Part shown: positions 42,432 through 57,513 of the stretch, one piece after another
Layout of the letters: every line of letters starts with the position of its first letter
Numbering within the stretch: the stretch's first letter is position 1
Made by a program: the position numbers and the translations under genes
NCBI GenBank assembly: GCA_030652995.1
Contig: JAUSAG010000045.1
Location: 1 to 57,970, forward strand
DNA: 57,970 nt
Reading direction: 5' to 3'
Source of the DNA: Methylotenera sp.
Lineage (GTDB): Bacteria > Pseudomonadota > Gammaproteobacteria > Burkholderiales > Methylophilaceae
Notes under the pieces: model-generated
Told to the model about the DNA's origin: nothing
What the model saw: the letters and a program-made list of their open reading frames with translations, nothing else
The model's database searches: none

Positions 42432-44138
42432 ATGAAATACAAAACAATTATTAATGCGCTTATCGCTACAGGATTGGTCGCAAGTAGCAATTCTATACTT
42501 GCCAATGAAGCTAACATTCAAAATGGTACAGTTTTCATTGATGATAAGAATGGGCAATCTATTCAAATAGCTGATGCTTATGAGGTCGTTCCAGTAAACC
42601 AAGATGCGCAAGATCAAGAAACTAAGATCAAGGAGCGATTGAACGAAATCGTCCTGGAAGAAAAGCTTGCAAAACGCGCTACGAATGGTTACTACGTTGA
42701 ACGAAAAAGCTATGGCACTGGTCGTGAAACTGACCCACCTCGTTATGTAAAGCAGTTAAACAAAACATGGTTAAAAGATGTCGCAGGTCTTGAAAATGTT
42801 AATTGGTTAGATATTGGACTAGATTACCGTTTTAGATATGAAACGCGCGATAACGATTTCCGTCGTGGCAGAGATACAATCGACGAGCCAATCCTGCTTC
42901 GCACACGTGGATATGTCGCTGTTAAAGATATTTTGGACCCTCTACGTTTTACATTAGAAGTTGAAGATGCGAGAAGAAATCATAGTCAATTCTCACGTGA
43001 GTTTGACACGCGAGATGTTAACTATGCAGAGCCTATTCAAGCTTACCTTGAGCTATTTTTCAAAGAAACTCCACTAGGTAAAGATGACTTGGGTAACAAC
43101 AGACCGATTAGCATAAAAGCGGGTCGTCAGGCCTTTGAATATACAGATAGACGATTGTTAGCGCGCAATGAATGGCGCAATACTACCAACAACTTTCAAG
43201 GTGTTCGTACCACAATCGGCCAAAGTAAAAACGACTGGCAACTCGACTTGTTAGCACTTAAACCAGTGCAGCGGTTAAACAATCAACTTGACGAAGTGGA
43301 TCACTCACAAGATTTCTATGGTGTAATCGGCGACTGGCGTCGATGGTCTGAGTACGTGACCTTGCAACCCTACTACTATTTATTAAAGCAAGATGGCAAC
43401 AAGGTTGAGTATGATGCAAATGGTAAGACTGCCGCTGCCAATACTAAGATTGACCGTGAAATTCATACCGCTGGCATCCGTGCCTATGGGGTGATTGGCG
43501 CTACAGGCTGGGACTATGATGCAAGCTATGTTAAACAATGGGGCAATCAGGACCGTATCGCAAGTGGGAACACTTTCAAACTAGATCATGATGCCTATTC
43601 GTACAACGCAGAAATTGGCTACTCCTGGAAACACGCTTGGAAACCACGACTGAGTGCATTCTATGGGGTGGCAAGCGGCGACAAAAATGCTACCGACGCT
43701 AAAAACCAACGCTTTGAAAGACTCTTCGGCTTTGCGCGTCCATGGTCGAATAACGATTACTTTCAAATGGAAAACATTAGTGCACCAAAAGTCCGCGCTG
43801 AGTTTGAGCCGCAATTATCTTGGCTACCTGGTCTTAAAGTAGACGCTGGCTACAGCTGGTACCGCCTAGATCAAGAACGTGATCGCTGGAATGGTGCTGG
43901 CTTAAGAGATAACAGAGGTCAAAGCGGAAAAGATGTAGGCGAAGAAGTAGATGTTCGCGTGCGTTTTCCAATCAATAAATACATTGGTGTGAATGTGGGT
44001 TACGCACACTTTTGGGCTGGCGACTTTACGAAAGATACCACTGCCATAACAGGAACAGGCGGCACTAATCAGGCAGACCCAAATCGCCGCGATCACTCCA
44101 ATTTCTTTTACACAGAGATTTCAATCAGTGCGTTTTAA
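42432..44138 (+). CDS. outer-membrane beta-barrel of the alginate-export porin family
   Basis: About 568 residues from the ATG at 42432, preceded by AAGGAA. A signal peptide ([18 protein letters not shown], cleaved near LAN), a short helical N-terminal segment, then a barrel with many alternating aromatic strands ([39 protein letters not shown]; final Phe in ISAF). This resembles AlgE-like porins. Between DUF2292 and sbp it more plausibly passes sulfate, sulfonates or sulfate esters than alginate; that is inference from context. Confidence 0.8.
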
Positions 44139-44179
44139 TTCACAAAGTTATGAATATTTATTACAAAGGAAGCATTAAG

Positions 44180-45187
44180 ATGGCTAATCAATTAAATTTA
44201 AAAAAATTAATAGCGGCAGCAATACTATCTAGCCCCTTGCTAGCGTTAGCAGCTGATATCACCTTGTTAAACGTGTCTTATGACCCAACACGAGAACTAT
44301 ATGTAGAATATAACGCAGCGTTTGCCAAGCATTGGAAAACTAAAACCGGTGACAATGTCACCATCAAGCAATCTCATGGTGGCGCGGGTAAGCAAGCGCG
44401 CGCGGTGATTGATGGGCTTCAGGCAGATGTTGTGACACTGGCGTTATCCTATGATATTGATGAGATTAGCTCAAAGGCAAAGCTTATTCCTAGCGATTGG
44501 CAAAAACGCTTAGCCCACAACAGCTCACCCTATACCTCTACGATTGTTTTATTGGTTCGTAAAGGCAACCCTAAGAAAATTAAAGACTGGAATGACTTGG
44601 TTAAACCAGGCGTTTCAGTGATTACCCCTAACCCAAAAACATCAGGCGGTGCCCGTTGGAATTATTTAGCGGCTTATGCCTATGCACTTAAACAAAACAA
44701 TAATGACGATGCAAAAGCACGCGAATTTGTAGGAAAGCTGTTTAAAAATGTACCTGTTCTCGATAGCGGCGCACGTGGATCTACTACTACTTTCGTAGAA
44801 CGCGGCATTGGTGATGTGTTTATCTCTTGGGAAAATGAAGCATTCTTGGCGCAAAAAGAGCTTGGTCCTGACAAGTTTGAAATTATCATCCCATCTTTAT
44901 CTATTTTGGCAGAGCCACCTGTCACTATTATCGACAAAACAGTTGATAAGCGTAAAACCCGCGCCGTTGCACAAGCCTACTTAGAGTATTTATATAGTGA
45001 AGAAGGCCAAGAAATTGCAGCTAAAAACTACTATCGTCCGACATTAACATCTGTTGCAGCCAAATATGAGAAGCAATTTCCTGTAGTCAACTTGATCAAG
45101 ATTGATGATGTGTTTGGTGGATGGCAAAAAGCACAAAAGACGCACTTCTCTGATGGTGGTATTTTCGACCAGATCTATCAAAAATAA
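44180..45187 (+). CDS. sbp: periplasmic sulfate-binding protein, Sbp type
   Basis: About 335 residues with a signal peptide ([20 protein letters not shown]). AAAGGAAG supports the ATG at 44180 over one 10 codons upstream. The ligand-site blocks [29 protein letters not shown] and [19 protein letters not shown] are those of E. coli Sbp as I recall it, whereas the second copy at 52.5 kb has CysP-like versions. It delivers sulfate to CysTWA, encoded about 10 kb away. A 13-bp-stem terminator follows. Confidence 0.94.
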
Positions 45188-45206
45188 TTAAAGTTAAGTT
45201 GCTATC

Positions 45207-45241
45207 ACTCAGCATCAAACAAAATTTGATGCTGAGTTTTT
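45207..45241 (+). terminator. strong terminator after sbp
   Basis: Perfect 13-bp stem ACTCAGCATCAAA / TTTGATGCTGAGT, loop CAAAA, then TTTT. DUF2325 starts 17 nt further on, so any read-through would be reduced. Confidence 0.92.
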
Positions 45242-45257
45242 ATAGGAGGCTCTTACC

Positions 45258-45605
45258 ATGAGTTCAGTATTAATTGTAGGTGGTGACCAGATTGATGGCA
45301 TCAAGCAAGTACTAAGCAATTACGGAGTAGATCACATCAACCATTGGTCGGGCCGCAAAGCTGGCGATGGGCATAAAGTGATTCCACAAAATACGCGTTT
45401 AGTCGTGTTGATTACCGACTGGATTAGCCACTCTTTTACTTACAGCATTAAGCGTACAGCCTCTAAAAGAGGCTTAAAAGTCATCTATACGTGCAACGGC
45501 GCGGCACAACTTCAGGCCAAACTTGAAAAAATAGGCGATACATTGGTGGATGCCTGTCGAAAGACATTACGCACATTAAATTTCACTAACGCGGCCTATT
45601 CATAA
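45258..45605 (+). CDS. DUF2325 protein
   Basis: 115 residues with the DUF2325 pattern VLIVGGDQIDGIKQVLSNYG, ITDWISHSF and VIYTCNG. This is a small Rossmann-like fold of unknown function often seen with metal, redox or sulfur genes. TAGGAGG gives a strong ribosome-binding site although a terminator lies immediately upstream. It may be expressed by read-through or from a promoter overlapping the hairpin. Confidence 0.82.
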   Translation: MSSVLIVGGDQIDGIKQVLSNYGVDHINHWSGRKAGDGHKVIPQNTRLVVLITDWISHSFTYSIKRTASKRGLKVIYTCNGAAQLQAKLEKIGDTLVDACRKTLRTLNFTNAAYS

Positions 45606-45693
45606 GCTTCGCATTTAAGCCAGCGTCTTTAAATGAGCGCTTTAGGCGCGTGAATAGGTCCTGAATATCACGTTAAAAAATTAGGAGGCCACC

Positions 45694-45801
45694 ATGCACA
45701 CACAGGACGAAACCTACACGCCACCCATGCCTTTAATTTTTAAAGGCATTATCGCGATTGAAGTTATCGCGACATTGGTCACATTTTTTATAATTAAATA
45801 G
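45694..45801 (+). CDS. 35-residue single-span membrane peptide
   Basis: A perfect AGGAGG (45684-45689) lies 4 nt before the ATG. The peptide starts with a polar segment (MHTQDETYTPPMP), then a hydrophobic helix from LIFKGIIAIEVIATLV to the C-terminal IIK. I recognise no family. It lies between DUF2325 and metY in the sulfur region. The strong ribosome-binding site and clean helix make it a credible small gene. Confidence 0.6.
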   Translation: MHTQDETYTPPMPLIFKGIIAIEVIATLVTFFIIK

Positions 45802-46053
45802 CAACAAGTGGTGGCCGCTTAACACTTAAAACCTAGCGGTGCTTTCTTTCCTTAGTTGTCCGGCACCTGCATTTGAATAACGTACAAGTTGCCAGACTTT
45901 TTGCCTAAGTTTTAACGTAGTTTTGATTCAACCTTTTAGACAACCTGTGAGTACAGTTAATAAAGGCATACAGGGCAGTGTTTTTCTCTCTTGATATTTT
46001 TTGCAATAATCTTGTAAAAACCGTACGAAAAAATTAATAAGGAGTCCGTTGCA

Positions 46054-47325
46054 ATGAAATCAGAAACCATCGCCATTCACGCAGGTTACAGCCCTGAGCC
46101 CACCACTAAAGCGGTGGCTGTGCCTATTTATCAAACCACCTCTTATGCGTTTGATAACACGCAACATGGTGCGGATTTATTTGATCTCAAAGTGCAAGGA
46201 AATATCTACACGCGCATCATGAACCCCACCACAGCAGTTCTAGAGCAACGGTTAACCGCATTAGAAGGCGGCATTGGTGCGCTGGCAGTAGCTTCCGGCA
46301 TGGCAGCCATTACTTACGCCATACAAACCATTGCTGAGGCAGGCGATAATATCGTATCAGTTTCAACGCTTTATGGCGGCACTTACAATTTATTTGCACA
46401 TACGCTGCCTAAGCAAGGTATTGAAGTGCGTTTTTTTGATTATCGCGATCCAGCTGCTCTAGAAAAACTTATTGATAGCAAAACAAAATTGGTATTTGCC
46501 GAGTCAATTGGTAATCCTTTAGGTAATGTTGTGGATATTGCCGCAATTAGCAAAATAGCCCATGCGCATGGCGTGCCTGTCGTTGTCGATAATACCGTTG
46601 CCACACCAATTTTGCATCGCCCATTTGAACATGGCGCAGATATTGTAGTGCATTCACTCACAAAATATATTGGTGGGCATGGCAATTCTATTGGCGGTAT
46701 TATTATTGATAGCGGTAAATTCCCATGGGGCGACCATAAAGAACGCTTTCCGGTACTCAACACGCCAGACCCAAGCTATCACGGCGTAAATTATGTTGAA
46801 GCCCTTGGTCCAGTGGCTTATATTGCGAGAGCACGCGTAGTGCCGCTGCGTAATACAGGTGCGGCGCTCAGCCCATTTAATACATTTTTGATTTTGCAGG
46901 GTTTAGAAACATTACCCTTGCGTATTGAACGCCATAGTGACAATGCCCTTCGTGTCGCGCAATATTTAAAACAACACTCTAAAGTAAAATGGGTAAAATA
47001 CGCAGGCTTAAGCGATCACCCAGAACACGCCTTAGTACACAAATATTTAAGCGGCAAAGCTTCGGGTATTTTAACGTTTGGCGTAGCTCACGGCTTGCAA
47101 GGTGGCACACGTTTTATTGATGCGCTCAAACTCATTACGCGCTTAGTCAATATTGGCGATGCAAAAAGTTTAGCTTGTCACCCAGCCACCACTACGCATC
47201 GCCAACTCAATGCTGAAGAACTAGTTAAGGCAGGTGTGAGTGAAGACATGGTGCGCATTTCTGTGGGCATTGAAAACGTAACTGATATTATTGAAGATTT
47301 AGATCAGGCTTTGGCACAAGTTTAA
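46054..47325 (+). CDS. metY: O-acetylhomoserine sulfhydrylase (MetY)
   Basis: 423-residue PLP enzyme of the Cys/Met metabolism family. It makes homocysteine from O-acyl-homoserine and sulfide. Family marks: [26 protein letters not shown], the PLP Lys in [16 protein letters not shown], and [18 protein letters not shown]. About 420 residues is the MetY length; cystathionine gamma-synthases are nearer 390. It would use the product of MetX/MetW encoded at the left end of the window. GGAGT serves as ribosome-binding site. I saw no riboswitch in the 250-bp leader. Confidence 0.93.
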
Positions 47326-47386
47326 TTTTTAATGGTTTCATTTTATAAGTTTAACTTTTTAAATTTTATTTAAAAAAAGGTTTGAT

Positions 47387-48367
47387 ATGTCAAGTTGGTT
47401 TGAAGACAACGCACAATCTATTGGCAATACGCCTTTGGTAAAACTAAACCGAATTACCGATGGAGCAAAAGCAACCGTGCTAGCTAAAATTGAAGGCCGA
47501 AACCCGGCCTATTCTGTGAAGTGTCGCATCGGTGCGGCGATGATCTGGGATGCGGAACAACGCGGATTGTTAAGTTCTGGTAAAGAAATTGTTGAACCAA
47601 CCAGTGGTAATACTGGTATTGCTTTAGCTTTTGTGGCTGCAGCACGCGGCATTCCACTCACGCTCACCATGCCAGAAACCATGAGCATAGAGCGTCGTAA
47701 ATTATTAGTGGCTTATGGTGCAAAATTGGTGCTGACTGAAGGTGCAAAAGGCATGAGTGGTGCGATAACCAAAGCAGAAGAAATTGCGGCATCTGACCCC
47801 TCTAAGTATGTACTTTTACAACAATTTAAAAACCCAGCTAATCCTGCAATTCATGGAAAAACCACAGGCCCTGAAATTTGGGAGGCCACAGATGGCAAAG
47901 TGGATATTTTTGTCGCTGGCGTAGGTACAGGCGGTACCATTACTGGAGTGTCTCGTTATCTTAAAAACTCGCAAGGTAAGGCGGTTATTACCGTAGCAGT
48001 TGAGCCTTCAGCCAGTCCAGTACTCACCCAAAAACGTGCAGGTGAAGAATTAAAACCTGCTCCACATAAAATTCAAGGCATCGGTGCTGGCTTTGTGCCA
48101 AGTATTCTAGATTTGTCGCTCGTGGATGATATTGCGCAAGTAAGTAATGAAGAGGCTATACTATACGCACAACGTTTAGCCAAAGAAGAAGGCATCTTGT
48201 CTGGCATTTCATGCGGTGCAGCAGTTGCCGTGGCTATACGCTATGCAAAACGACCTGAAAATTCAGGTAAAATCATCGTTGTGATTCTACCAGACTCAGG
48301 TGAACGTTATTTGAGCTCAATTTTGTTTGAAGGAAAGTTTGATGCTCATGGTTTGGCGTATGTGTAA
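47387..48367 (+). CDS. cysK: cysteine synthase A (O-acetylserine sulfhydrylase)
   Basis: 326-residue PLP enzyme joining O-acetylserine and sulfide to cysteine. [12 protein letters not shown], the PLP Lys in [13 protein letters not shown], the Asn loop [12 protein letters not shown], the phosphate-binding [11 protein letters not shown] and the C-terminal PDSGERYLS agree with CysK. It is directly downstream of metY and convergent with the encapsulin operon, whose cysE makes its substrate. cysK beside a family 2A encapsulin is a known recurring neighbourhood. Confidence 0.95.
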
Positions 48368-48441
48368 ATGATTTTTGCAAAGTGTTTTGACCGCAAAAGA
48401 CCTGAAACTAAGCAGTTGTTTAACGTAATTCTCTCCTTGTT

Positions 48442-48476
48442 AATCTGGCAAACCCACACGGGGTGCCAGATTTTTT
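48442..48476 (+). terminator. terminator after cysK
   Basis: AATCTGGCA (48442-48450) pairs with TGCCAGATT (48464-48472), with an inner CCC/GGG pair, followed by Ts. It ends only about 10 nt from the convergent desulfurase stop. Confidence 0.8.
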
Positions 48477-48486
48477 CTACAGTCTT

Positions 48487-50346
48487 CTAGGGTGCTTTAT
48501 GCGAAGCTAATCGCAACAACGCATTCACCATCACATCTACTTCAGCTGGCGTATTATAAAAAGCGAGTGATGGCCGAACGGTAGTTTCCAAGCCGAATCG
48601 ACGCAAAATTGGCTGTGCACAATGGTGACCTGACCGCACTGCAATGCCCTCTTGATTGAGTGCAGCACCCACTTCTTCACTTTTATAGCCATTTAGTGTG
48701 AACGATAATACGCTGGCTTTTTCTTTCGCTGTACCCACCAAGCATAGGCCTGGCACTTTGCACATGGCTGCTGTTGCATATTCTAATAAATCATGTTCAT
48801 AGCGAGCGATGTTATCAATGCCAATGCGCTCCACATAAACTAACGCCGCGCCTAAGCCCACTGCATCTGCAATGTTACCTGTACCAGCTTCAAACTTTAA
48901 TGGCGCATCATGATAAACAGTTTTGTCAAACGTCACATCTTTAATCATATTGCCACCACCTTGCCATGCAGGCATATCTGCCAGAAATTCAGGCTTACCA
49001 TACAAAGCACCAATACCTGTTGGGCCAAATACTTTGTGACCTGAAAACACAAAAAAATCAGCATCTAATGACTGCACGTCAGTGCGCATATGTGAAACAG
49101 ATTGAGCGCCATCTAACAAAACTTTTGCCCCTGCTCGATGCGCCATTTGTATCATTTCAGACGCCGGGGTGACTGTACCTAATGCGTTAGACACTTGGGT
49201 AAATGATACTAATTTCACATGTGAAGTCAGTAACTTTTGATATTCAGACAGTATTATTTGGCCGCTTTCATCTACAGGGGCAACTTTAAGGGTTGCACCC
49301 GTTTCTTGGCAAAGCTGTTGCCACGGTACAATATTGGCATGATGCTCAAGATGTGAAATCAGAATTTCATCACCTGCACCTATATGTTTTTTACCCCATG
49401 TTTTAGCCACTAAGTTAATGGCTTCCGTAGTACCTCTCACAAATATTATGTTATCTATCGAGGGGGCATTGATAAAACGTCGTACTGTTTCACGCGCATC
49501 TTCATAAGCATCCGTGGCGCGAGCGGCGAGCTCATGTGCGGCACGGTGAATGTTAGAATTTTCATGTGCATAAAAGTAAGCAATTCTATCAATCACCATT
49601 TGCGGCTTTTGTGTTGTGGCCGCGTTATCAAACCAAATCAGCGGACGACCATTGACTAGCTCGCGCAAAATTGGAAAATCTTTACGCACTAGGTTGGCAT
49701 CAAACGGTGGGTGAGCACTACTAATTGGGCTCGTTTGAGCTGCATCTTGTTGATGTGGTGAGTCTTGCAAAAAGTAGTAAGGCGTAGCCCCATTTAGACT
49801 GGCTGTTTGGCTTGAGCCTGAGCTAATAATGCCTGAATGACTATTTAAGCCACCCAATAATTGGTTTAATTCAGTTTGATACGGGTCTTCTGCACCATTG
49901 ATTAAATGAGAAATATCTAAATAGTCACTACTTGGCAATGAGTTAGCATATCCAGTATTGAGTATGTCAGTAGGCACTAAATTGGGGGCGCCTGATGCCA
50001 TACTTGGCATTGCGCTTGCAATAGATGGCGTAGGCTTTTGCACTGGGTCTGATACTAAATTAGGGCTAGGTAACACGCCTCGGCTAGGCACGGGCGAGAG
50101 CGATGCATTAGATGGGAACACCTCCTGCTGAGCAAACGGAGAACCTGCAGGAAAGCCTTCTGAATAAAGCTCATTGGCAATGCGGGTGAGTTCTGATACA
50201 TCTAAATGCCCACCTGCGGATGCTTGCCTTCCCACCGCTAAGGCAGCCGCCATGCGTGGATGATCGCCTGGCAAAGCCGCTAAAATGGCTTCAGGCTCAA
50301 AAGACGAGAAATCACCTAAGCCTGAAAATGCATTATTTATAGTCAT
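48487..50346 (-). CDS. encapsulin cargo cysteine desulfurase with disordered N-terminal targeting domain
   Basis: 619 residues. The C-terminal 400 form a SufS-like type II desulfurase: PLP Lys about 438 in FSGHKVFGPTGIGALYG, catalytic Cys about 576 in RSGHHCAQPILRRFG. It converts cysteine to alanine plus a persulfide. The first 220 or so residues are low-complexity, rich in Pro, Ser, Ala and Asn, with short conserved-looking islands (LTRIANELYSEGF near 60, YYFLQDSP near 190). This is the layout of the packaged CyD cargo of family 2A encapsulins, whose N-terminal domain directs loading. The start overlaps the shell gene's stop by 14 nt, so the two are coupled. Confidence 0.92.
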   Translation of the reverse strand: MTINNAFSGLGDFSSFEPEAILAALPGDHPRMAAALAVGRQASAGGHLDVSELTRIANELYSEGFPAGSPFAQQEVFPSNASLSPVPSRGVLPSPNLVSDPVQKPTPSIASAMPSMASGAPNLVPTDILNTGYANSLPSSDYLDISHLINGAEDPYQTELNQLLGGLNSHSGIISSGSSQTASLNGATPYYFLQDSPHQQDAAQTSPISSAHPPFDANLVRKDFPILRELVNGRPLIWFDNAATTQKPQMVIDRIAYFYAHENSNIHRAAHELAARATDAYEDARETVRRFINAPSIDNIIFVRGTTEAINLVAKTWGKKHIGAGDEILISHLEHHANIVPWQQLCQETGATLKVAPVDESGQIILSEYQKLLTSHVKLVSFTQVSNALGTVTPASEMIQMAHRAGAKVLLDGAQSVSHMRTDVQSLDADFFVFSGHKVFGPTGIGALYGKPEFLADMPAWQGGGNMIKDVTFDKTVYHDAPLKFEAGTGNIADAVGLGAALVYVERIGIDNIARYEHDLLEYATAAMCKVPGLCLVGTAKEKASVLSFTLNGYKSEEVGAALNQEGIAVRSGHHCAQPILRRFGLETTVRPSLAFYNTPAEVDVMVNALLRLASHKAP

Positions 50347-51250
50347 GGTAGTTGCCTACATCTACGTTTTCTAACACGGCAATTGCGTCATCGGTCAGTA
50401 CCGCGAGAGAGCAATAGAGTGAAACTAAGTATGAGGCAATGGCTTTGTGGTTAATGCCCATAAAGCGCACAGATAATCCCATGCTTTGTTGCCCTGGTAA
50501 ATTAGGCTGATATAATCCTACAACTCCCTGGCGGCTTTCGCCTGTGCGCAGCAATATAATGTTGGTTTTGCCTTTGGTCACTTTTAATTTATCACAAGGG
50601 ATAATCGGCACACCACGCCATGTGATGAATTGTGAGCCAAATAGAGCAACGGTTGGTGGTGGTACGCCTCTACGGGTGCATTCTCGACCAAAAGCAGCTA
50701 TCGCTTGTGGATGAGCTAAAAAGAAGGCAGGCTCTTTCCAAACCTTAGTGAGCAACTCATCAAAGTCATCAGGGGTTGGTGCGCCTGTACGTGATTTTAC
50801 TTTTTGTGAATCTACAATATTATTCAACAAACCATACTCTGCGTTGTTGATGAGTTCGCTTTCTTGACGTTCTTTTACGGTTTCAATAGTTAAACGTAAT
50901 TGCTCTTTAATTTGATTGTGCGGGCTGCTGTATAAATCGGAAACGCGTGTGTGCACATCAACTGCTGTATTCACAGCGTTTAACACATACTCACGGCCCC
51001 ACTCTTCGTAATCTACAAAGGTTGCAGGAATATCACGTTCATCTTTTGCAGAGCAATCTACTTCAATTGAACTTGGGTTCTTTACTTTATTTACACGGTA
51101 GATACCTGCCTCGACCGGTACCCATTGCATTAAATGCACCAGCCAGCGCGGCGTGATCGTTCCCATCATCGGGACGGTTTTGGTCGCATTTGAAAGCGTG
51201 CGTGCCGCAACGTCACCTAATGCAGTGTGGGCTTGATGTATATCAGTCAT
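50333..51250 (-). CDS. srpI: family 2A encapsulin shell protein (SrpI-like)
   Basis: 305 residues. Recognised as the SrpI/family 2 encapsulin by TITPRWLVHLMQWVPVEAG followed by YRVNKV, the E-loop/P-domain region, SRTGAPTPDDFDELLTKVWKEPAFFLAHP, TWRGVPIIPCDKL and the C-terminal LPGQQSMGLSVRFMGINHKA. It has an HK97-like fold that self-assembles into a hollow icosahedral shell. The flanking genes cysE and a desulfurase with a long N-terminal extension define the 2A (cysteine desulfurase) type rather than terpene-linked 2B. No cyclic-nucleotide-binding domain is visible, which also argues for 2A. Ribosome-binding site GGAGAGAAAACA. Confidence 0.93.
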   Translation of the reverse strand: MTDIHQAHTALGDVAARTLSNATKTVPMMGTITPRWLVHLMQWVPVEAGIYRVNKVKNPSSIEVDCSAKDERDIPATFVDYEEWGREYVLNAVNTAVDVHTRVSDLYSSPHNQIKEQLRLTIETVKERQESELINNAEYGLLNNIVDSQKVKSRTGAPTPDDFDELLTKVWKEPAFFLAHPQAIAAFGRECTRRGVPPPTVALFGSQFITWRGVPIIPCDKLKVTKGKTNIILLRTGESRQGVVGLYQPNLPGQQSMGLSVRFMGINHKAIASYLVSLYCSLAVLTDDAIAVLENVDVGNYHDYK

Positions 51251-51291
51251 TGTTTTCTCTCCTGTGAAAATTTTTAAATAGAATATTTCGT

Positions 51292-52227
51292 TTACTGCGT
51301 AGCATCAGTCACTGTCCGTTGCTGAGTCTTTGCCTGCGTGATCTGGCTATTTTCTGGTACGCTTCGTGTGAGCCATACATTACCGCCTATCACTGATCCT
51401 GCACCTATCGTGATGCGCCCGAGTATTGTTGCACCCGCATAAATCACCACATCATCTTCCAGAATCGGGTGTCTGGCGCTGCCTTTGATTAAATGCCCAT
51501 GCTCATCGGTTGGAAAGCGTTTAGCCCCTAGCGTTACGGCCTGATACAGCCTGACGTGCTGCCCTATTACCGCTGTTTCTCCGATAACAACACCTGTCCC
51601 ATGATCAATAAAGAAGCCTTCGCCTATCGTTGCTCCTGGATGAATATCGATACCTGTTGCTGAATGTGCCAGTTCTGAGATAATGCGTGCAATCAACGGC
51701 AAACCTAGTTTATGTAACTCATGTGCCAGACGATAATTTATAATTGCCGATATGCCTGGGTAGCAAACCAATACTTCATCCAGGCTGCGCGCCGCAGGGT
51801 CTCCCTCAAACGCTGCATTTAAATCTGTATCCAACAGCTGGCGTATTTGTGGCAATGTCTGGGCAAAAGCACGCGCCTTATTTAACGCAGCTTCGGCACT
51901 GGGGGTTTTATCGTCTTCGGTATCTGCTGAGTATCTCAGCTCTAACTGAATCTGCGCATTGAGTTCACGTAGCGCAACATCTAATGTATAACCGACAAAA
52001 TAGTCGATACCTTCTTCATTTAAGCCCGGTGCACCTAATCGGTTAGGAAACAGTGCCGCACTCAGGCCTTCCAGCACCTCTTGCAAGGCTTTTCTTGAAG
52101 GCAGTTTTGGCGGTTTATTTCGCCGGTGTCGATGCTCCAATGAAGCCAGCCTTAAATCGTGTAATGCCTGCACAATGGCTGGAATATCAAAACTTTCGTT
52201 AGATGACACGGTAGTGGGATGCAGCAT
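51292..52227 (-). CDS. cysE: serine O-acetyltransferase (CysE/EpsC type)
   Basis: About 311 residues from the ATG at 52227, with CAGGTG upstream. The frame opens 25 codons earlier but that part is a terminator-like hairpin. The helical N-terminal domain is followed by the SAT hexapeptide helix: PGISAIINYRLAHELHKLGL, GIDIHPGATIGEGFFIDHGT (catalytic His), GVVIGETAVIGQHVRLYQAV. It makes O-acetylserine for CysK. First gene of the encapsulin operon; the acetyltransferase is a recurrent partner of family 2A shells. It is not expected to be packaged, as it lacks the cargo domain. Confidence 0.94.
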   Translation of the reverse strand: MLHPTTVSSNESFDIPAIVQALHDLRLASLEHRHRRNKPPKLPSRKALQEVLEGLSAALFPNRLGAPGLNEEGIDYFVGYTLDVALRELNAQIQLELRYSADTEDDKTPSAEAALNKARAFAQTLPQIRQLLDTDLNAAFEGDPAARSLDEVLVCYPGISAIINYRLAHELHKLGLPLIARIISELAHSATGIDIHPGATIGEGFFIDHGTGVVIGETAVIGQHVRLYQAVTLGAKRFPTDEHGHLIKGSARHPILEDDVVIYAGATILGRITIGAGSVIGGNVWLTRSVPENSQITQAKTQQRTVTDATQ

Positions 52228-52248
52228 ATCAACACCTGTAACAGAAAT

Positions 52249-52282
52249 AAAAAAAGCCAGCGTGTCTTTCGACACGCTGGCT
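52249..52282 (-). terminator. intrinsic-terminator hairpin in the cysE/encapsulin leader (attenuator candidate)
   Basis: Minus strand: perfect 11-bp stem GCCAGCGTGTC-GAAA-GACACGCTGGC closed by a further A-T pair, followed by seven T. It ends 21 nt before the cysE ATG. A candidate promoter TTGGCA-17-TATTTT lies about 115 nt upstream of cysE (52346-52374). A terminator so placed would control the whole operon. Confidence 0.8.
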
Positions 52283-52345
52283 TCCGGTTGTCCGGTCAGC
52301 ACAAATTAATTCGAGCGATATAAAATCATTACTTAATGCGCCTAC

Positions 52346-52374
52346 AAAATACAATTACGTATGCACTTTGCCAA
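52346..52374 (-). promoter_or_regulatory. candidate promoter of the encapsulin operon
   Basis: Minus strand TTGGCA (52374-52369), 17-bp spacer, TATTTT (52351-52346). Transcription would start near 52339, upstream of the attenuator hairpin. Confidence 0.35.
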
Positions 52375-52430
52375 TATACACCACTAGCCTAACTAAAAAA
52401 AGAGAACTTACAAAAATTACCATATATTAC

Positions 52431-52450
52431 TTTTAGTTATAAATATATAA
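52431..52450 (+). promoter_or_regulatory. shared sulfur-region upstream element, copy 2
   Basis: TTTTAGTTATAAATATATAA, one mismatch from copy 1 at 42041-42060, ending 72 bp before the cysP start. It lies in the divergent region between cysP and the encapsulin operon, so it could act on both. A weaker TAGTTATA-containing relative lies at 54509-54516 before cysT. Confidence 0.55.
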
Positions 52451-52522
52451 ATTATCATTCTTTTACATTATTTTTATATCTGGTTAAAGTGCATGACTCA
52501 TTACTTTTAACTTAAAAAAATC

Positions 52523-53521
52523 ATGTTCAGAACACGCATCATTCCCTTATTTTTTATTCTTTCCAGCATTCTATTACCAACACTGGCACAAGCTGATACA
52601 AATTTACTTAACGTTTCATATGATGTTACACGTGAGTTTTATAAAGATTTTAATGCTTCATTCACTCAATACTGGAAAGTAAAAACTGGCGAAACCGTCA
52701 CCATTAACCAATCACATGGCGGCTCCAGCAAACAGGCCCGCTCAGTTGCAGACGGGCTTGAAGCAGATGTCATCTCCATGAATCAGGCCCCTGATATTGA
52801 TATTTTGTATGAGCGCTCAAAACTTATCCCTAAAGATTGGCAAAAGCGCCTGCCCAATGCCAGTTCTGCCACCAATTCAACCACCGTATTTCTAGTACGC
52901 AAGGGCAACCCCAAGAAAATTAAAGACTGGGATGACCTGATTAAACCTGGCATTGCTGTAGTAATTCCCAACCCAAAAACTTCTGGCAATGGCAAATACA
53001 GCTACCTGGCAGCCTGGGGCTATGTGATTAAAAAAGGTGGCGATGATGCAAAAGCCAAAGAGTTTGTAACTAAGCTGTTTAAAAATGTACCTGTTTTGGA
53101 TACTGGCGGACGTGGCGCGACCACAACCTTTGCGCAGCGTGACATTGGCGATGCGTTACTTACTTTTGAAAACGAAGTAAACCTCATTAAAAAAGAGCTC
53201 GGCGACAAATTCGATGTTGTGTATCCATCGGCAAGCATTCTGGCTGAAAACCCAGTGACTGTTGTTGATAAATTTGCCAAAAAACATAAAACACAAGCTA
53301 TTGCACAAGCTTACGTCGAATACCACTTTTCAGAGGCTGGCCAGGAGATAGCGGTACACCATTATCTGCGACCAACGCTCGATTCTGTTGCTACTAAATA
53401 CAAGGATCGTTTTAAAACCATCATTTTATTTAGCGTAGATGAGGTTTTTGGCGGCTGGGAAAAAGCGCAAAAAACGCACTTCAGCGATGGTGGTATTTTT
53501 GATCAGATTTATCAAAAATAA
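52523..53521 (+). CDS. cysP: periplasmic sulfate/thiosulfate-binding protein, CysP-like
   Basis: 332 residues with a signal peptide (IIPLFFILSSILLPTLAQAD). Paralogue of sbp at 44.2 kb; the C-terminal ends are nearly identical ([15 protein letters not shown] in both). Its ligand-site blocks differ and follow CysP: MNQAPDIDIL, NPKTSGNGKYSYLAAWG and DTGGRGATTTFAQRDIGDAL. This points to thiosulfate or broader specificity; I infer it from remembered E. coli sequences. First gene of cysP-EAL-cysT-cysW-cysA. Confidence 0.9.
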   Translation: MFRTRIIPLFFILSSILLPTLAQADTNLLNVSYDVTREFYKDFNASFTQYWKVKTGETVTINQSHGGSSKQARSVADGLEADVISMNQAPDIDILYERSKLIPKDWQKRLPNASSATNSTTVFLVRKGNPKKIKDWDDLIKPGIAVVIPNPKTSGNGKYSYLAAWGYVIKKGGDDAKAKEFVTKLFKNVPVLDTGGRGATTTFAQRDIGDALLTFENEVNLIKKELGDKFDVVYPSASILAENPVTVVDKFAKKHKTQAIAQAYVEYHFSEAGQEIAVHHYLRPTLDSVATKYKDRFKTIILFSVDEVFGGWEKAQKTHFSDGGIFDQIYQK

Positions 53522-53544: not shown

Positions 53545-54429
53545 ATGACAGATTTTGACACCTCCGCCAACCATGTTGAGCAGCTAAGATTGCAACTTAA
53601 GGAAGTCTTGCAACTTGACCTTGATGACTATGGACTAGTTGAGCAATCAACGGGCGAATTCAACAGCACTTTTTTAGGTGTGCAGTTAAATAGCGCATTT
53701 CAACCCATTTATGACATCCAGGCAGGTGATTTAATTGGTCATGAGGCTTTATTAAGGCCATCATTGGGAGGAGAGCTTCCCAGTACACCGGAGTTCACCT
53801 TTACTTACGCAGAGCAAGCAGGGAAATTAGTCCTGTTTGACCGCGTAAGTAGAACATTGCATGTACTCAACTTTAGGCAGATTTATGCCGAGAACGGCCT
53901 TTTATTTTTAAATGTGCACCCCAAGCTATTGGTTTCCGTGAGTACGCATGGCAAGGTATTTGAACGTATTTTACATGCCAACTCCGTACCTACCTCCCGC
54001 GTAGTGATTGAGATTCAAGAAGGCTTAATTGAGCAAGATAAACAGCTGACCGAAGCCATTGATAATTACCGGGATAGAGGCTACCAAATTGCTATTGACC
54101 GCTTTGGCAGTGCACTGTCTCATATTGATCGCCTTTGGAAATTTGCCCCTGATTTTGTCAAATTAGATTTAAATTTAATCCAAAAATCTGAACAAAATGA
54201 CCGCGTCAGAAAATTATTGCCTGGTTTAATTAAAATGATTAAAGACCTTGGCGCACAGCCTATTATTACCGGCATTGAAACTCAGGTACAACTGAATATT
54301 GCGTTAGAGGCTGGCAGCAACTTAGTGCAAGGTTATTTTTTAGCGAAACCAGTCACTGCTAAAGAGTTACGTGCCACCTCATTTTTAAAGCCAAACATAC
54401 CCAAAGCCAAGTTACTTGATGCGGCATAA
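53545..54429 (+). CDS. stand-alone EAL-domain protein in the sulfate-transport operon
   Basis: 294 residues, cytoplasmic. A short N-terminal segment (1-45) precedes one EAL domain. HEALLRP keeps the EAL glutamate and FLNVHP keeps the Asn, but the usual DDFGTG is AIDRFGSALS (the second Asp replaced by Arg), and KxD appears as KLDLNL. Loss in the DD motif predicts weak or no phosphodiesterase activity, so it may bind cyclic-di-GMP or a partner instead. It sits 23 nt after cysP and about 150 nt before cysT, same strand. Confidence 0.85.
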   Translation: MTDFDTSANHVEQLRLQLKEVLQLDLDDYGLVEQSTGEFNSTFLGVQLNSAFQPIYDIQAGDLIGHEALLRPSLGGELPSTPEFTFTYAEQAGKLVLFDRVSRTLHVLNFRQIYAENGLLFLNVHPKLLVSVSTHGKVFERILHANSVPTSRVVIEIQEGLIEQDKQLTEAIDNYRDRGYQIAIDRFGSALSHIDRLWKFAPDFVKLDLNLIQKSEQNDRVRKLLPGLIKMIKDLGAQPIITGIETQVQLNIALEAGSNLVQGYFLAKPVTAKELRATSFLKPNIPKAKLLDAA

Positions 54430-54586
54430 TTTGCAATTTTTATAACACTTAGCGTATAAAAACGTTATCTAAAACACATCTAAGCTTATTAGATAACATT
54501 TAGCTATATAGTTATACCTAAATGTTATTTTTAACTTATAAACTTGTCTGTTAAATTAGCGTGCGTTACACAACCGATTGAAAAAT

Positions 54587-55417
54587 ATGGCAAAACAAAA
54601 AAATGTACTTCCGGGCTTTAATTTATCTCTAGGCTTTACAATATTTTATTTAAGCTTAATTGTACTCATTCCGCTCTCTGCAGCCTTTATTAAAACCACA
54701 GAATTAAGCTTTTCTGAGTTTTGGCATATTGTGACGGCACCAAGAGTGGTCGCGTCATACAAACTCACTTTTGGCGCCTCGTTAATAGCCGCGTTAATTA
54801 ACGCAGTATTTGGCCTATTAACCGCTTGGGTGTTAGTACGCTATACTTTTACTGGCAAAAAATTTATCGATGCTTTAGTTGATTTACCTTTTGCATTACC
54901 TACAGCGGTTGCGGGCATTGCGCTTACAGCTGTGTATGCAGGCAATGGCTGGATAGGTTCATGGCTAGAGCCGCAAGGCATCAAGGTTGCATTTACTCCG
55001 ACTGGCGTGATGGTGGCTTTAACCTTTATCGGCTTGCCTTTTGTGGTGCGTACGGTACAACCCGTGTTAGAAGACCTGGAAGCCGAAACTGAAGAAGCCG
55101 CAGCAAGCCTAGGCGCCAACCGCTGGCAAACCTTCACTAAAATTATCTTTCCAGCCATTTGGCCCGCATTGTTAACTGGCTTTGCTTTGGCATTTGCACG
55201 TGCGATTGGTGAGTATGGTTCCGTTATATTTATTGCAGGCAACATGCCAATGGTGTCAGAAATCACGCCACTGCTTATCATTACTAAACTTGAACAATAC
55301 GATTACGTCGGTGCAACCGCCGTGGCAGTAGTCATGCTGATTATTTCTTTTATGCTCTTATTTGCGATTAACGGCTTGCAGTGGTGGACTAACCGCAACG
55401 CGCGCAGCGCGCATTAA
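54587..55417 (+). CDS. cysT: sulfate/thiosulfate ABC permease CysT (CysU)
   Basis: About 276 residues with six membrane spans. Permease signature EEAAASLGANRWQTFTKIIFP and the CysT-type blocks LPFALPTAVAGIALTAVY and ARAIGEYGSVIFIAGN. Heterodimerises with CysW. I chose the ATG at 54587 over a TTG three codons earlier. About 150 bp of AT-rich DNA precede it, with a weak copy of the sulfur-region element. Confidence 0.95.
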   Translation: MAKQKNVLPGFNLSLGFTIFYLSLIVLIPLSAAFIKTTELSFSEFWHIVTAPRVVASYKLTFGASLIAALINAVFGLLTAWVLVRYTFTGKKFIDALVDLPFALPTAVAGIALTAVYAGNGWIGSWLEPQGIKVAFTPTGVMVALTFIGLPFVVRTVQPVLEDLEAETEEAAASLGANRWQTFTKIIFPAIWPALLTGFALAFARAIGEYGSVIFIAGNMPMVSEITPLLIITKLEQYDYVGATAVAVVMLIISFMLLFAINGLQWWTNRNARSAH

Positions 55418-55457
55418 AACACCGTTATAGCCCATTGATGATTTTATAGGTTTATTT

Positions 55458-56354
55458 ATGTCTGTTATTACAACATCGCAATACACTAGCTACCACAACA
55501 AAGTGGCGCGCAGTCGTGCAACTTCAGAGCCTGCTTGGGTTCGCTATCTGTTGATTTTTACTGCTTTAAGTTTTTTAACCTTATTTCTGTTTGTTCCATT
55601 GGCTGCGGTGTTTACCGAGGCTTTGCGTAAAGGCTTTGGCACTTACGTCACGGCCTTACTCGACCCAGATGCGCTTTCTGCCATTAAATTAACCTTTGTC
55701 GCAGCCATTATTGCAGTGCCGCTTAACTTGGTTTTTGGGGTTGCTGCAGCCTGGGCAATTGCAAAGTTTGAGTTCAAAGGTAAGAGCATCCTCATTACTT
55801 TGATTGATTTGCCATTTGCCGTTTCACCTGTGATTGCTGGCCTGATTTATGTGCTGATTTTTGGCCTGCAAGGCTGGTTTGGCTCATCGTTGGTTGATAA
55901 CGATATTAAAGTAATTTTTGCGCTACCTGGCATAGTGTTAGCCACGGTGTTTGTTACATTTCCTTTTGTAGCACGTGAATTGATTCCATTAATGCAGGCG
56001 CAAGGCAAAGATGAAGAAGAGGCGGGCTTAGTCCTAGGCGCCTCTGGTTGGCAGATTTTGTGGCGCATTACCTTGCCCAATGTAAAGTGGGGTTTGTTAT
56101 ATGGTGTTATTTTAACCAATGCTAGAGCCATGGGTGAATTTGGCGCGGTATCCGTAGTATCTGGTCATATCCGCGGCATGACCAACACCCTGCCATTACA
56201 CGTTGAAATTTTATACAACGAATATAACTATGCTGCCGCATTTGCCGTAGCTTCACTGCTAGCGCTGTTAGCTTTAGTGACCTTGGCACTCAAGACCTTT
56301 GTTGAGTGGAAAGCGGCTAGTAATGCAAGCTACAATGAATCTGTTGTTCAATAA
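55458..56354 (+). CDS. cysW: sulfate/thiosulfate ABC permease CysW
   Basis: 298 residues with six membrane spans. Blocks: IDLPFAVSPVIAGLIYVLIFG, though split by one loop, then EEEAGLVLGASGWQILWRITLP (ABC-contact EAA loop) and NARAMGEFGAVSVVSGHI. Second half of the channel with CysT; 40 nt after cysT. Confidence 0.96.
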   Translation: MSVITTSQYTSYHNKVARSRATSEPAWVRYLLIFTALSFLTLFLFVPLAAVFTEALRKGFGTYVTALLDPDALSAIKLTFVAAIIAVPLNLVFGVAAAWAIAKFEFKGKSILITLIDLPFAVSPVIAGLIYVLIFGLQGWFGSSLVDNDIKVIFALPGIVLATVFVTFPFVARELIPLMQAQGKDEEEAGLVLGASGWQILWRITLPNVKWGLLYGVILTNARAMGEFGAVSVVSGHIRGMTNTLPLHVEILYNEYNYAAAFAVASLLALLALVTLALKTFVEWKAASNASYNESVVQ

Positions 56355-56421
56355 TTCGGCGATAAACTATCGTTGCCGACTGGCATTAATGCTATTTTCT
56401 AAATAAATTTGGAATAAAAAG

Positions 56422-57513
56422 ATGAGTATAGAAATACGTAACATCAAAAAGAATTTTGGACATTTTAGTGCGCTCAATGATGTGAGCTTGGATGTACCTA
56501 GTGGTGAGTTGGTTGCCTTGTTAGGGCCTTCTGGATGCGGGAAAACCACCCTATTGCGCATTATCGCTGGGCTAGAAACGCCGGACTCAGGCAACATTTT
56601 GTTTTATGGTAATGACGCTACCGAACGTAAAGTCCGTGAACGCGAAGTTGGTTTTGTGTTTCAACATTATGCGCTATTTCGCCACATGACCGTATTTGAG
56701 AATGTAGCTTTTGGTTTACGTGTACGCCCTAAACAAACGCGCCCATCAGATACTGAAATCAAACGTCGCGTGCATGAACTGCTTGAGCTGGTGCAATTAG
56801 ATTGGCTTGCTGATCGTTATCCACCACAGCTATCTGGCGGCCAACGCCAGCGTATTGCATTGGCACGTGCGTTAGCAGTAGAACCCAAAGTATTATTGCT
56901 AGATGAGCCCTTTGGTGCGCTGGATGCCAAAGTACGCAAAGAGTTACGCCGCTGGTTGCGCCGTTTACATGACGAGCTACATATCACCAGCATTTTTGTA
57001 ACACATGACCAGGAGGAAGCACTAGAAGTGGCTGATCGTGTTGTCGTCATCAACAAAGGACAAATCGAACAAATTGGTTCACCGCAAGAGGTTTATGACC
57101 ACCCGGTATCGCCATTTGTTTATCAATTCTTAGGCAATGTGAATCAGTTTGATAGCCACATACATGAAGGTGCGGCAAAAATTGCGGGCATAGACCTGAA
57201 GTTAGATGATCATCATGCTACACAGAACACCCCCGCATTAGCATTTGTACGACCACATGATATTGAAATCTTTAAAGAGAGAAGAGAAGATAAAGTTGGA
57301 TTTGAAGCTATTGTTAGCTATGTGCACGCCATTGGACCACTCGTAAGGTTGGAACTACAACGTGCCGATCATACCGAACTAGTTGAAGCAGAGCTGACAC
57401 AAGAACGATTTCGTGAGTTGAACCTAACTGCCAACGATAATGTTTATATCTACCCGCGCAACGTACGCGTATTTTTAAATGAAGAAGCCCCGATTAGTAC
57501 ACAATCGACATAA
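56422..57513 (+). CDS. cysA: sulfate/thiosulfate ABC ATPase CysA
   Basis: 363 residues. Walker [11 protein letters not shown]-loop [12 protein letters not shown], signature [15 protein letters not shown], Walker [13 protein letters not shown] and switch His in [10 protein letters not shown]. The C-terminal regulatory domain (about 240-363) includes FVRPHDIEI and is typical of CysA. Energises CysTW. Confidence 0.97.

Follow-up and report, generated by a model that had tools for sequence, protein, structure and literature searches.

The encapsulin SrpI of Synechococcus elongatus, which encloses the cysteine desulfurase CyD, is induced by sulfate starvation, and encapsulation raised the kcat of CyD about sevenfold (PMC8049743; this and the other PMC-numbered papers are cited from portions of their text). 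It belongs to family 2A, of which 1281 desulfurase operons, 813 of them in Proteobacteria, were catalogued in 2021, with serine O-acetyltransferase (SAT) and rhodanese as the most enriched accessory genes (PMC8346489). We study here a stretch of 57,970 nucleotides (nt) of Methylotenera sp., contig JAUSAG010000045.1 of assembly GCA_030652995.1, called the window, which holds an operon of SAT, a family 2A shell and CyD. A preliminary description of the window had considered the role of such shells outside cyanobacteria little studied, which the catalogue contradicts; it made no mention of the most novel feature of the locus, a small RNA hairpin in the leader of the operon.

We hold it likely that this operon stores sulfur and is read through a 5' attenuator hairpin, the mark of a sulfur regulon governed after transcription initiation. 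Fairly probably, methylotrophs, methanotrophs and ammonia oxidisers have a sulfur regulon defined by this hairpin, as a cis-regulatory RNA of an undescribed class that comes in two arrangements (a transcription terminator, or a hairpin near the start codon) and ties the building of a sulfur-storage encapsulin to sulfur status after transcription has started; “undescribed” refers to the open-access literature that was searched, in which the element was not found. The gene identities, the conserved fold of the RNA and the gene associations given below are observations.

The leader hairpin and its terminator

The operon leader (52251-52300, minus strand) consists of a conserved 21-nt hairpin, with stems P1 and P2, joined directly to an intrinsic terminator that lies shortly ahead of the SAT start (Table 1). 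The terminator, located by the scan at 52285-52252, has 15 pairs, and is much the longest of 11 terminator-like sites, where 8.4 +/- 3.1 were expected. Because the upstream gene, sbp2, is divergent, the terminator lies between divergent genes and ends no upstream gene: it thus looks like an attenuator. Together with the stretch that precedes it, it is among the most conserved parts of an alignment of 27 SAT-sbp2 intergenic regions, which contain a second conserved block near 52440-52475. In loci of both Methylophilaceae and Methylococcales, the same stretch heads the encapsulin operon, ahead of its first gene.

The fold was followed in two alignments. The first, A2, contains 51 of the 55 distinct terminator-form copies (L043, L095, L099 and L102 were left out). 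In P2 and the terminator stem, 98.6% of its cells are paired, against a mean of 90.8% in shuffled alignments; changes on both sides of a pair occur at 9 of the 14 pairs, in 67 cells as compared with 14.3 after shuffling; none of 500 shuffles reaches any of five measures, and sliding the partners lowers pairing to 23-43%. P1 (GCU/AGC) and P2 taken together are paired in 99.7% of cells, versus 97.3% for shuffles, mostly through constancy, and their number of pair types is reached by 78 of 500 shuffles. The second alignment, A3, contains 39 of the 40 instances found outside a terminator context (L101 was left out), picked by a scan that scores P2 pairs, so that only the counts for P1 have partial independence. 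Here 91.0% of cells at the seven pairs of P1 and P2 are paired, versus 78.3% in shuffles (0 of 500), and all three P1 pairs show double-sided changes; two of the five measures were matched or exceeded by 33 and 24 of the 500 shuffles.

The predicted energy of the 21-nt hairpin is -8.1 kcal/mol, that of the full terminator -24.8, and that of the terminator without its AAGC/GCUU foot -15.6. Since P1 and this foot share A-G-C letters, they would be mutually exclusive. In two Methylophilaceae porin leaders (L061, L063), GATGAAC on the 5' side of the core can pair, by eye, with a GTTCATC touching the start codon, a pairing that would exclude P1. Judged by its conserved covarying fold overlapping a terminator, the leader is a candidate cis-regulatory attenuator RNA.

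Other readings of the hairpin were considered and rejected. Guanidine-II and CsrA sites do not fit: the loop letters vary, and in 51 of the 51 rows of A2 the conserved 3' GGA has both of its G in pairs. An antiterminator formed by GCUG/CAGY pairing has 93.6% of its cells paired but no double-sided change, and P1 pairs better. A K-turn would need partners other than the invariant C6-G17 pair.

Genes headed by the element

A strict descriptor of the core (YGA, four Watson-Crick pairs closed by C-G, a tetraloop beginning with A, ARG) was applied to 1331 distinct upstream regions from 95 loci. Its 72 matches stand before SAT (37 of 81 regions), cysK (12/27), PF13372-like porins (9/31), the shell (7/86) and unlabelled open reading frames (ORFs; 7/574), and these last seven all code for Porin_O_P (PF07396), a porin family different from PF13372. 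The gene directly after the porin is sbp1, for a sulfate-binding protein, in 16 of the 16 descriptor-bearing porin-type cases. No match occurs before sbp1 (48 regions), sbp2 (35), EAL (61), DUF2325 (34), metY (3), CyD (87), cysT/W/A (60/58/69), YeeE (7), FadL (7) or other homologues of window genes (63). Reversed sequence yields 0 matches, and ten first-order Markov controls 0 or 1 each, to be compared with 83 when duplicates are kept. Fifteen matches are antisense: nine before sbp2, the divergent neighbour of SAT, two before FadL and four before unlabelled ORFs. A looser scan of the core, with 178 unique matches versus 92 in a reversed control not made unique, was used for candidates only.

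A covariance model of the leader element, R1, searched with Infernal's stricter filters, matches 61 of 187 Methylophilaceae genomes at E<=1e-4 (60 over 40 bits) and 60 of 151 Methylococcales genomes (55 over 40 bits), the latter set being the order of genome G196, presumably Methylococcales. In a class-wide draw, 9 of 369 genomes match, and only two, the genome of the window and G196, do so with more than 40 bits. Among matches weaker than about 40 bits there are plain terminators and reverse strands, and the R1 matches among the 80 named loci described below are partly the training rows of the model. Within Methylotenera, R1 is present in 15 of the 15 genomes with a shell and in 1 of the 22 without, counts taken over related genomes and not over independent events; in the lone shell-less carrier (G033), the element sits at the edge of a contig, and an operon behind it would be truncated there.

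One weak match, in G461 (30.8 bits), was discarded as a plain terminator among genes that by eye resemble those of cytochrome maturation. The exact core pattern, searched class-wide (7 of 369 genomes), was also put aside: by eye, three matches lie inside coding sequence reading GMTGMPEA, the match in G359 is probably coding, and one of the three in G196 also looks coding.

In Rfam 15, the window matches three tRNAs only, with none for the leader at gathering score; a scan of 52150-52540 at E<=5 gives three matches, far under gathering score, and no RNA family appears in 19 of 20 loci with further copies of the element. The cited portions of two RNA-motif surveys (PMC11109978, PMC2965389) hold no like motif under sulfur terms.

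The further copies extend the list of genes. In Methylophilaceae, copies in which both sides of P1 have changed together (GCC...GGC) stand before the gene of a FadL-type outer-membrane protein (PF03349: L064, L071, L206), and a sulfur-transport gene (PF04143) comes next in L064 and L207; the corresponding ORF in L206 has no Pfam match at E<=1e-5. In Methylococcales, 20 copies were hand-picked from 104 matches, favouring genomes with several copies. Ten of them head a cysK/SAT/shell/CyD operon, the first called gene being SAT, 1014 nt on, in L220, and a shell in L226. Three head the gene of a regulator dependent on sigma-54, possibly SfnR-like, with PF00158 found in L221 and L232 and only generic sigma-54 matches in L223; three a FadL-like protein, which matches PF03349 in two cases (L225, L229) and in L235 lies 774 nt on, followed by YeeE; two the assimilatory sulfite reductase gene cysJ (TIGR01931 over cut-off in L234 and L238), followed by cysI (scanned in L234). 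The remaining two were not assigned to a gene class, one of them lying near mercury-resistance-like genes. Finally, in four Nitrosomonas-type loci (L087, L089, L093, L097), the strict core stands before a porin gene, from which the genes continue with sbp1 and EAL as far as shell and CyD, and the looser scan finds tandem copies in Nitrosomonas-type porin leaders.

Two loci may be noted apart. In L230 (G645:C175), a copy with a broken P2 pair lies near genes that by eye resemble mercury-transport genes, and is perhaps carried by a mobile element. In L227 (G616:C17:69400-75500), two element matches lie within about 80 nt (contig 17, 70364 and 70442), with no called gene within 1.5 kilobases (kb) downstream on the element strand.

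The operon and its sulfate locus

Table 1. Features of the encapsulin operon, its leader and the surrounding sulfate locus (bits are given as score and model cut-off; aa, amino acids).
Feature	Position	Strand	Basis
Core RNA hairpin GCUGACCGGACAACCGGAAGC: P1 (3 bp), GA/A internal loop, P2 (4 bp), ANNN tetraloop	52280..52300	-	pair counts, descriptor enrichment
Intrinsic terminator overlapping the P1 3' strand, ending ~24 nt before the SAT start	52251..52285	-	terminator scan, covariation, -24.8 kcal/mol
SAT, EpsC-type serine O-acetyltransferase, first operon gene	51292..52227	-	311 aa; NF041874 165 bits, cut-off 150
Family 2A encapsulin shell, SrpI-like	50333..51250	-	305 aa; NF041162 encap_f2a 540 bits, cut-off 380
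CyD, SufS-like cargo cysteine desulfurase	48487..50346	-	619 aa; NF041166 894 bits, cut-off 800
CyD N-terminal cargo domain, residues 1 to ~214	49705..50346	-	both published loading-domain motifs
cysK, convergent neighbour of the operon	47387..48367	+	TIGR01139 459 bits, cut-off 351
metY-type O-acetylhomoserine/O-acetylserine sulfhydrylase	46054..47325	+	TIGR01326 667 bits, cut-off 495
Outer-membrane porin (PF13372), sbp1, DUF2325: other arm of the sulfate locus	42432..45605	+	profile matches
sbp2, second sulfate-binding protein, divergent from SAT	52523..53521	+	TIGR00971 435 bits, cut-off 155.5
EAL-domain protein, between sbp2 and cysT	53545..54429	+	PF00563
cysT-cysW-cysA sulfate ATP-binding cassette (ABC) transporter	54578..57513	+	TIGR02139 430/246, TIGR02140 415/329, TIGR00968 408/343 bits

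SAT, shell and CyD form, as the preliminary description had it, a single tight operon on the minus strand, with all three ORFs intact: SAT and shell are 41 nt apart, while shell and CyD overlap by 14 nt, an overlap shared by 53 of the 75 relatives in which CyD adjoins the shell.

By profile matches and a sequence match to a solved chain, the shell is an encapsulin of family 2A, which bears out its first assignment. Beyond the family model, it matches PF19307 (SrpI-like, 352 bits) and no other Pfam domain, and its residues 7-305 match the SrpI structure PDB 6X8M with E=2.6e-153. With 305 aa and an SrpI-like domain only in Pfam, it lacks the inserted cyclic nucleotide monophosphate (cNMP)-binding domain that marks family 2B; it also passes the 2B model (419 bits, cut-off 400), yet the best stretch covers only model positions 210-449 of 450. 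In L226 (G620:C1:548300-554300), two different 2A shell-like ORFs, 67% and 71% identical to that of the window, adjoin before CyD and behind the RNA element, a possible two-shell 2A system.

CyD is, on its motifs and profile match, a family 2A cargo desulfurase with an N-terminal loading domain, the long domain that had been remarked on from the start. The alignment with NF041166 begins only at residue 179, and among the best 60 of 79 PDB matches none aligns before residue 198. The two loading-domain motifs, taken from PMC8049743, are found as LTRIANELYS at residues 53-62 (BLOSUM score 33, versus a 99% threshold of 22 for shuffled domains) and ATPYYFLQD at residues 187-195 (35 versus 23). Among 80 distinct CyDs, the window's included, the first motif is present in 70, the second in 55 and both in 53. 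The genome's IscS (over cut-off) and a NifS-like desulfurase (410 bits, cut-off 531) begin at the catalytic domain and lack both motifs. We presume, by motif, that Cys576 (GHHC) of CyD is catalytic and that Lys438 (SGHK) binds pyridoxal phosphate.

The first gene had been labelled cysE. Its product is indeed a serine O-acetyltransferase, but the name is loose: it falls below the cut-off of the cysE model TIGR01172 (172 versus 210.65 bits). The SAT profile scores were computed on a 336-aa frame starting at GTG 52302, which falls within the RNA element; the ATG at 52227 has AGGTG upstream and is the likely start. In the SAT of the cysteine synthase complex, a C-terminal Ile docks into CysK. This Ile is absent here, the protein ending in VTDATQ, and likewise from the genome's canonical CysE (over the TIGR01172 cut-off), which lies on contig 11 beside IscS and the NifS-like desulfurase. 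Of 75 distinct SATs besides the window's, those overlapping an upstream cysK have a terminal Ile in 18 of 18 cases, versus 5 of 57 for the others; a coupling of the Ile to cysK was rejected, with only 3 independent pairs on starred branches and a sign test that is not significant.

The same SAT class is found beside a cysA-like ABC ATPase gene in L029 and L030 (G045, G051), from genomes without a shell match, and L029 also carries sbp-like and cysT-like genes near SAT. In A. baumannii, a gene “sat” rises more than 1000-fold in a cysE mutant, in a paper whose cited portion does not use the word encapsulin (PMC13344012).

Eighty named loci, the best 80 of at least 531 in genome contigs, put the operon in context. 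CyD lies directly downstream of the shell in 75 of them and SAT directly upstream in 64; in 18 the operon begins with cysK. Where more than 8 kb is available on both sides (43 loci), sulfate-binding protein genes occur in 34 loci and cysTWA genes in 34. The shell is present in 15 of 37 Methylotenera genomes and in 2 of 24 others of the order, and a second SAT adjoins it in all 17 carriers. Seven loci with the EAL-transporter module (L157-L162, L166) come from Methylotenera genomes without a shell match: in six of them, sbp1, EAL and cysTWA are close together with no encapsulin operon between, that is, an empty site, and the seventh, L161, stops at a contig edge.

As to the neighbours in the window, the earlier statement that metY and cysK are convergent with the operon is correct; that of a divergent cysPTWA stands for sbp2 and cysTWA, and overlooked the EAL gene between them. 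The EAL protein reads DRFG in place of DDFG, the metal motif expected of EAL domains, and is probably non-catalytic. Among 57 aligned relatives, the second Asp of DDFG is kept in only 3 and the EAL Glu is absent in 17, mostly Nitrosomonas-type; the protein looks like a non-catalytic regulator associated with the sulfate transporter locus. Among Methylotenera genomes, 14 of the 15 with a shell and 7 of the 22 without one carry an orthologue. The two sbp genes (44150-45187 and 52523-53521) point the same way, lie on either side of the encapsulin block and have the same C-terminal end: recombination between them could excise the block, and the six shell-less relatives resemble the product. The small DUF2325 protein (45258-45605) is conserved beside sbp1, with a relative in 33 of the 80 named loci.

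A proposed switch for a probable sulfur store, and comparable systems

Storage of sulfur in this operon, a trans factor and the direction of the switch are what we infer. Storage, already proposed in the preliminary description, is by homology the best-supported role of the compartment. SAT would supply O-acetylserine; CyD, loaded through its N-terminal domain, would strip the sulfur of cysteine inside the SrpI-type shell, yielding alanine, and this sulfur would probably be held in the shell in the form of elemental sulfur or polysulfide. Under sulfate shortage, the stored sulfur would be reduced to sulfide, and refixed on O-acetylserine or O-acetylhomoserine by CysK or MetY. The switch itself would be worked by a trans factor, most likely a protein and possibly a metabolite, that holds P1: the terminator foot beside the U-tract would stay open, termination would weaken, and the operon would be read (bound = on). 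Both the terminator arrangement and the start-codon pairing of L061 and L063 would fit a putative rule “hairpin held = gene on”. Because the operon lies inside a sulfate-uptake locus, and because in relatives the RNA element is common to cysJI and uptake genes, the compartment would be made as part of the response to sulfur limitation, in line with the induction of SrpI (PMC8049743). Standing before cysJI, porin-sbp, FadL-YeeE/YedE and sigma-54 regulator genes, the hairpin would mark a sulfur regulon acting after initiation, the compartment included.

A number of observations weigh against this picture. Shell or cargo knockouts of S. elongatus have no growth phenotype (PMC8049743). In the leader, P1 shows a single double-sided cell across its three pairs in A2, and the minimum-energy fold contains P2 and the terminator but leaves P1 unformed. 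The 21-nt core of the hairpin, which has no known trans factor, is small for a metabolite aptamer. R1 is found once in the window's genome, the core was not seen before the window's own porin gene, and of the 80 named loci the 16 that are Nitrosomonas-type all lack the terminator form. Within 45600-52800, promoter-like sites do not exceed chance (20 versus 15.0 +/- 4.2).

There is also the possibility that the hairpin is not a protein site but a metabolite riboswitch, sensing for example O-acetylserine, cysteine, sulfide or adenosine phosphosulfate (APS). As in riboswitch classes, one core appears in two arrangements, with a terminator or as a hairpin just before the start codon; but in so short a core, with a stem of 4 bp and three loop bases that vary, there is little space for a binding pocket, and the tandem copies of some porin leaders would fit a protein site or a cooperative one equally well, so that we find a riboswitch rather unlikely. 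It seems quite improbable that the element is a DNA operator, a dyad CCGG-N4-CCGG bound by a transcription factor such as CysB, with an incidental terminator. P2 is near-palindromic, and CysB often governs sulfur genes; however, the arms change in step (CCAG/CTGG, CCGT/ACGG, CCAT/ATGG, CTAG/CTAG), which keeps the pairing and not the letters; the flanks lack symmetry, the element always lies on one strand with respect to the first gene, and it overlaps a covarying terminator. We give hardly any credence to an ordinary leader-peptide attenuator with cysteine codons: a short ATG ORF does precede the hairpin, but its 7 codons (by eye) include none for Cys, and its stretch is not conserved in the 27 intergenic regions, whereas the hairpin is.

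A different question is whether the compartment, instead of storing sulfur, sequesters or speeds CyD, for control of the cysteine pool or for iron-sulfur (Fe-S) supply. The sevenfold gain in kcat on encapsulation in S. elongatus and the enrichment of rhodaneses in 2A operons both speak for this role. The genome, however, already has IscS and a NifS-like desulfurase next to its canonical CysE, and sequestration of elemental sulfur in an encapsulin has reportedly been described (Benisch 2024, by title only); we regard the alternative as doubtful, though worth keeping in mind.

Returning to a sulfur store read through an attenuator, the trigger of the compartment outside cyanobacteria is apparently not known so far. 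An RNA switch common to cysJI and uptake genes would make the storage hypothesis testable and give a handle on the sensor, be it protein or metabolite, and the element would be a new sulfur-regulon marker for annotating the environmentally important one-carbon (C1) and ammonia oxidisers.

How does the locus compare with known systems? PyrR binding loops are protein-dependent RNA attenuators. They resemble the element in being a small hairpin with an internal loop beside a terminator, with one core before several operons of the same pathway; the sequence and fold of the Methylotenera hairpin differ, and it has no known RNA-binding partner. The dauA motif, a sulfate-linked riboswitch candidate of Streptomyces, is likewise an RNA motif by a sulfate-transporter-type gene, but it is a three-stem junction from another taxon, with no sign of relation in the cited portion of its source (PMC11109978). 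With the SrpI-CyD system of S. elongatus (Nichols 2021, PMC8049743, PDB 6X8M/6X8T), Methylotenera shares the SrpI-type shell, the SufS-like cargo, both loading motifs and the sulfur context. It differs in having SAT as first gene, a chromosomal sulfate locus with two sbp genes, and an RNA attenuator in its leader, a feature for which the S. elongatus leader was not searched. The proteobacterial 2A operons (Andreas & Giessen 2021, PMC8346489) have the same shell and CyD with SAT as an accessory gene; leader RNA goes unmentioned in the cited portion of that catalogue, and the sulfate module of Methylotenera adds EAL and DUF2325 genes. The compartment itself is of an already-known kind, and the leader RNA is, on present evidence, a candidate for a new RNA class.

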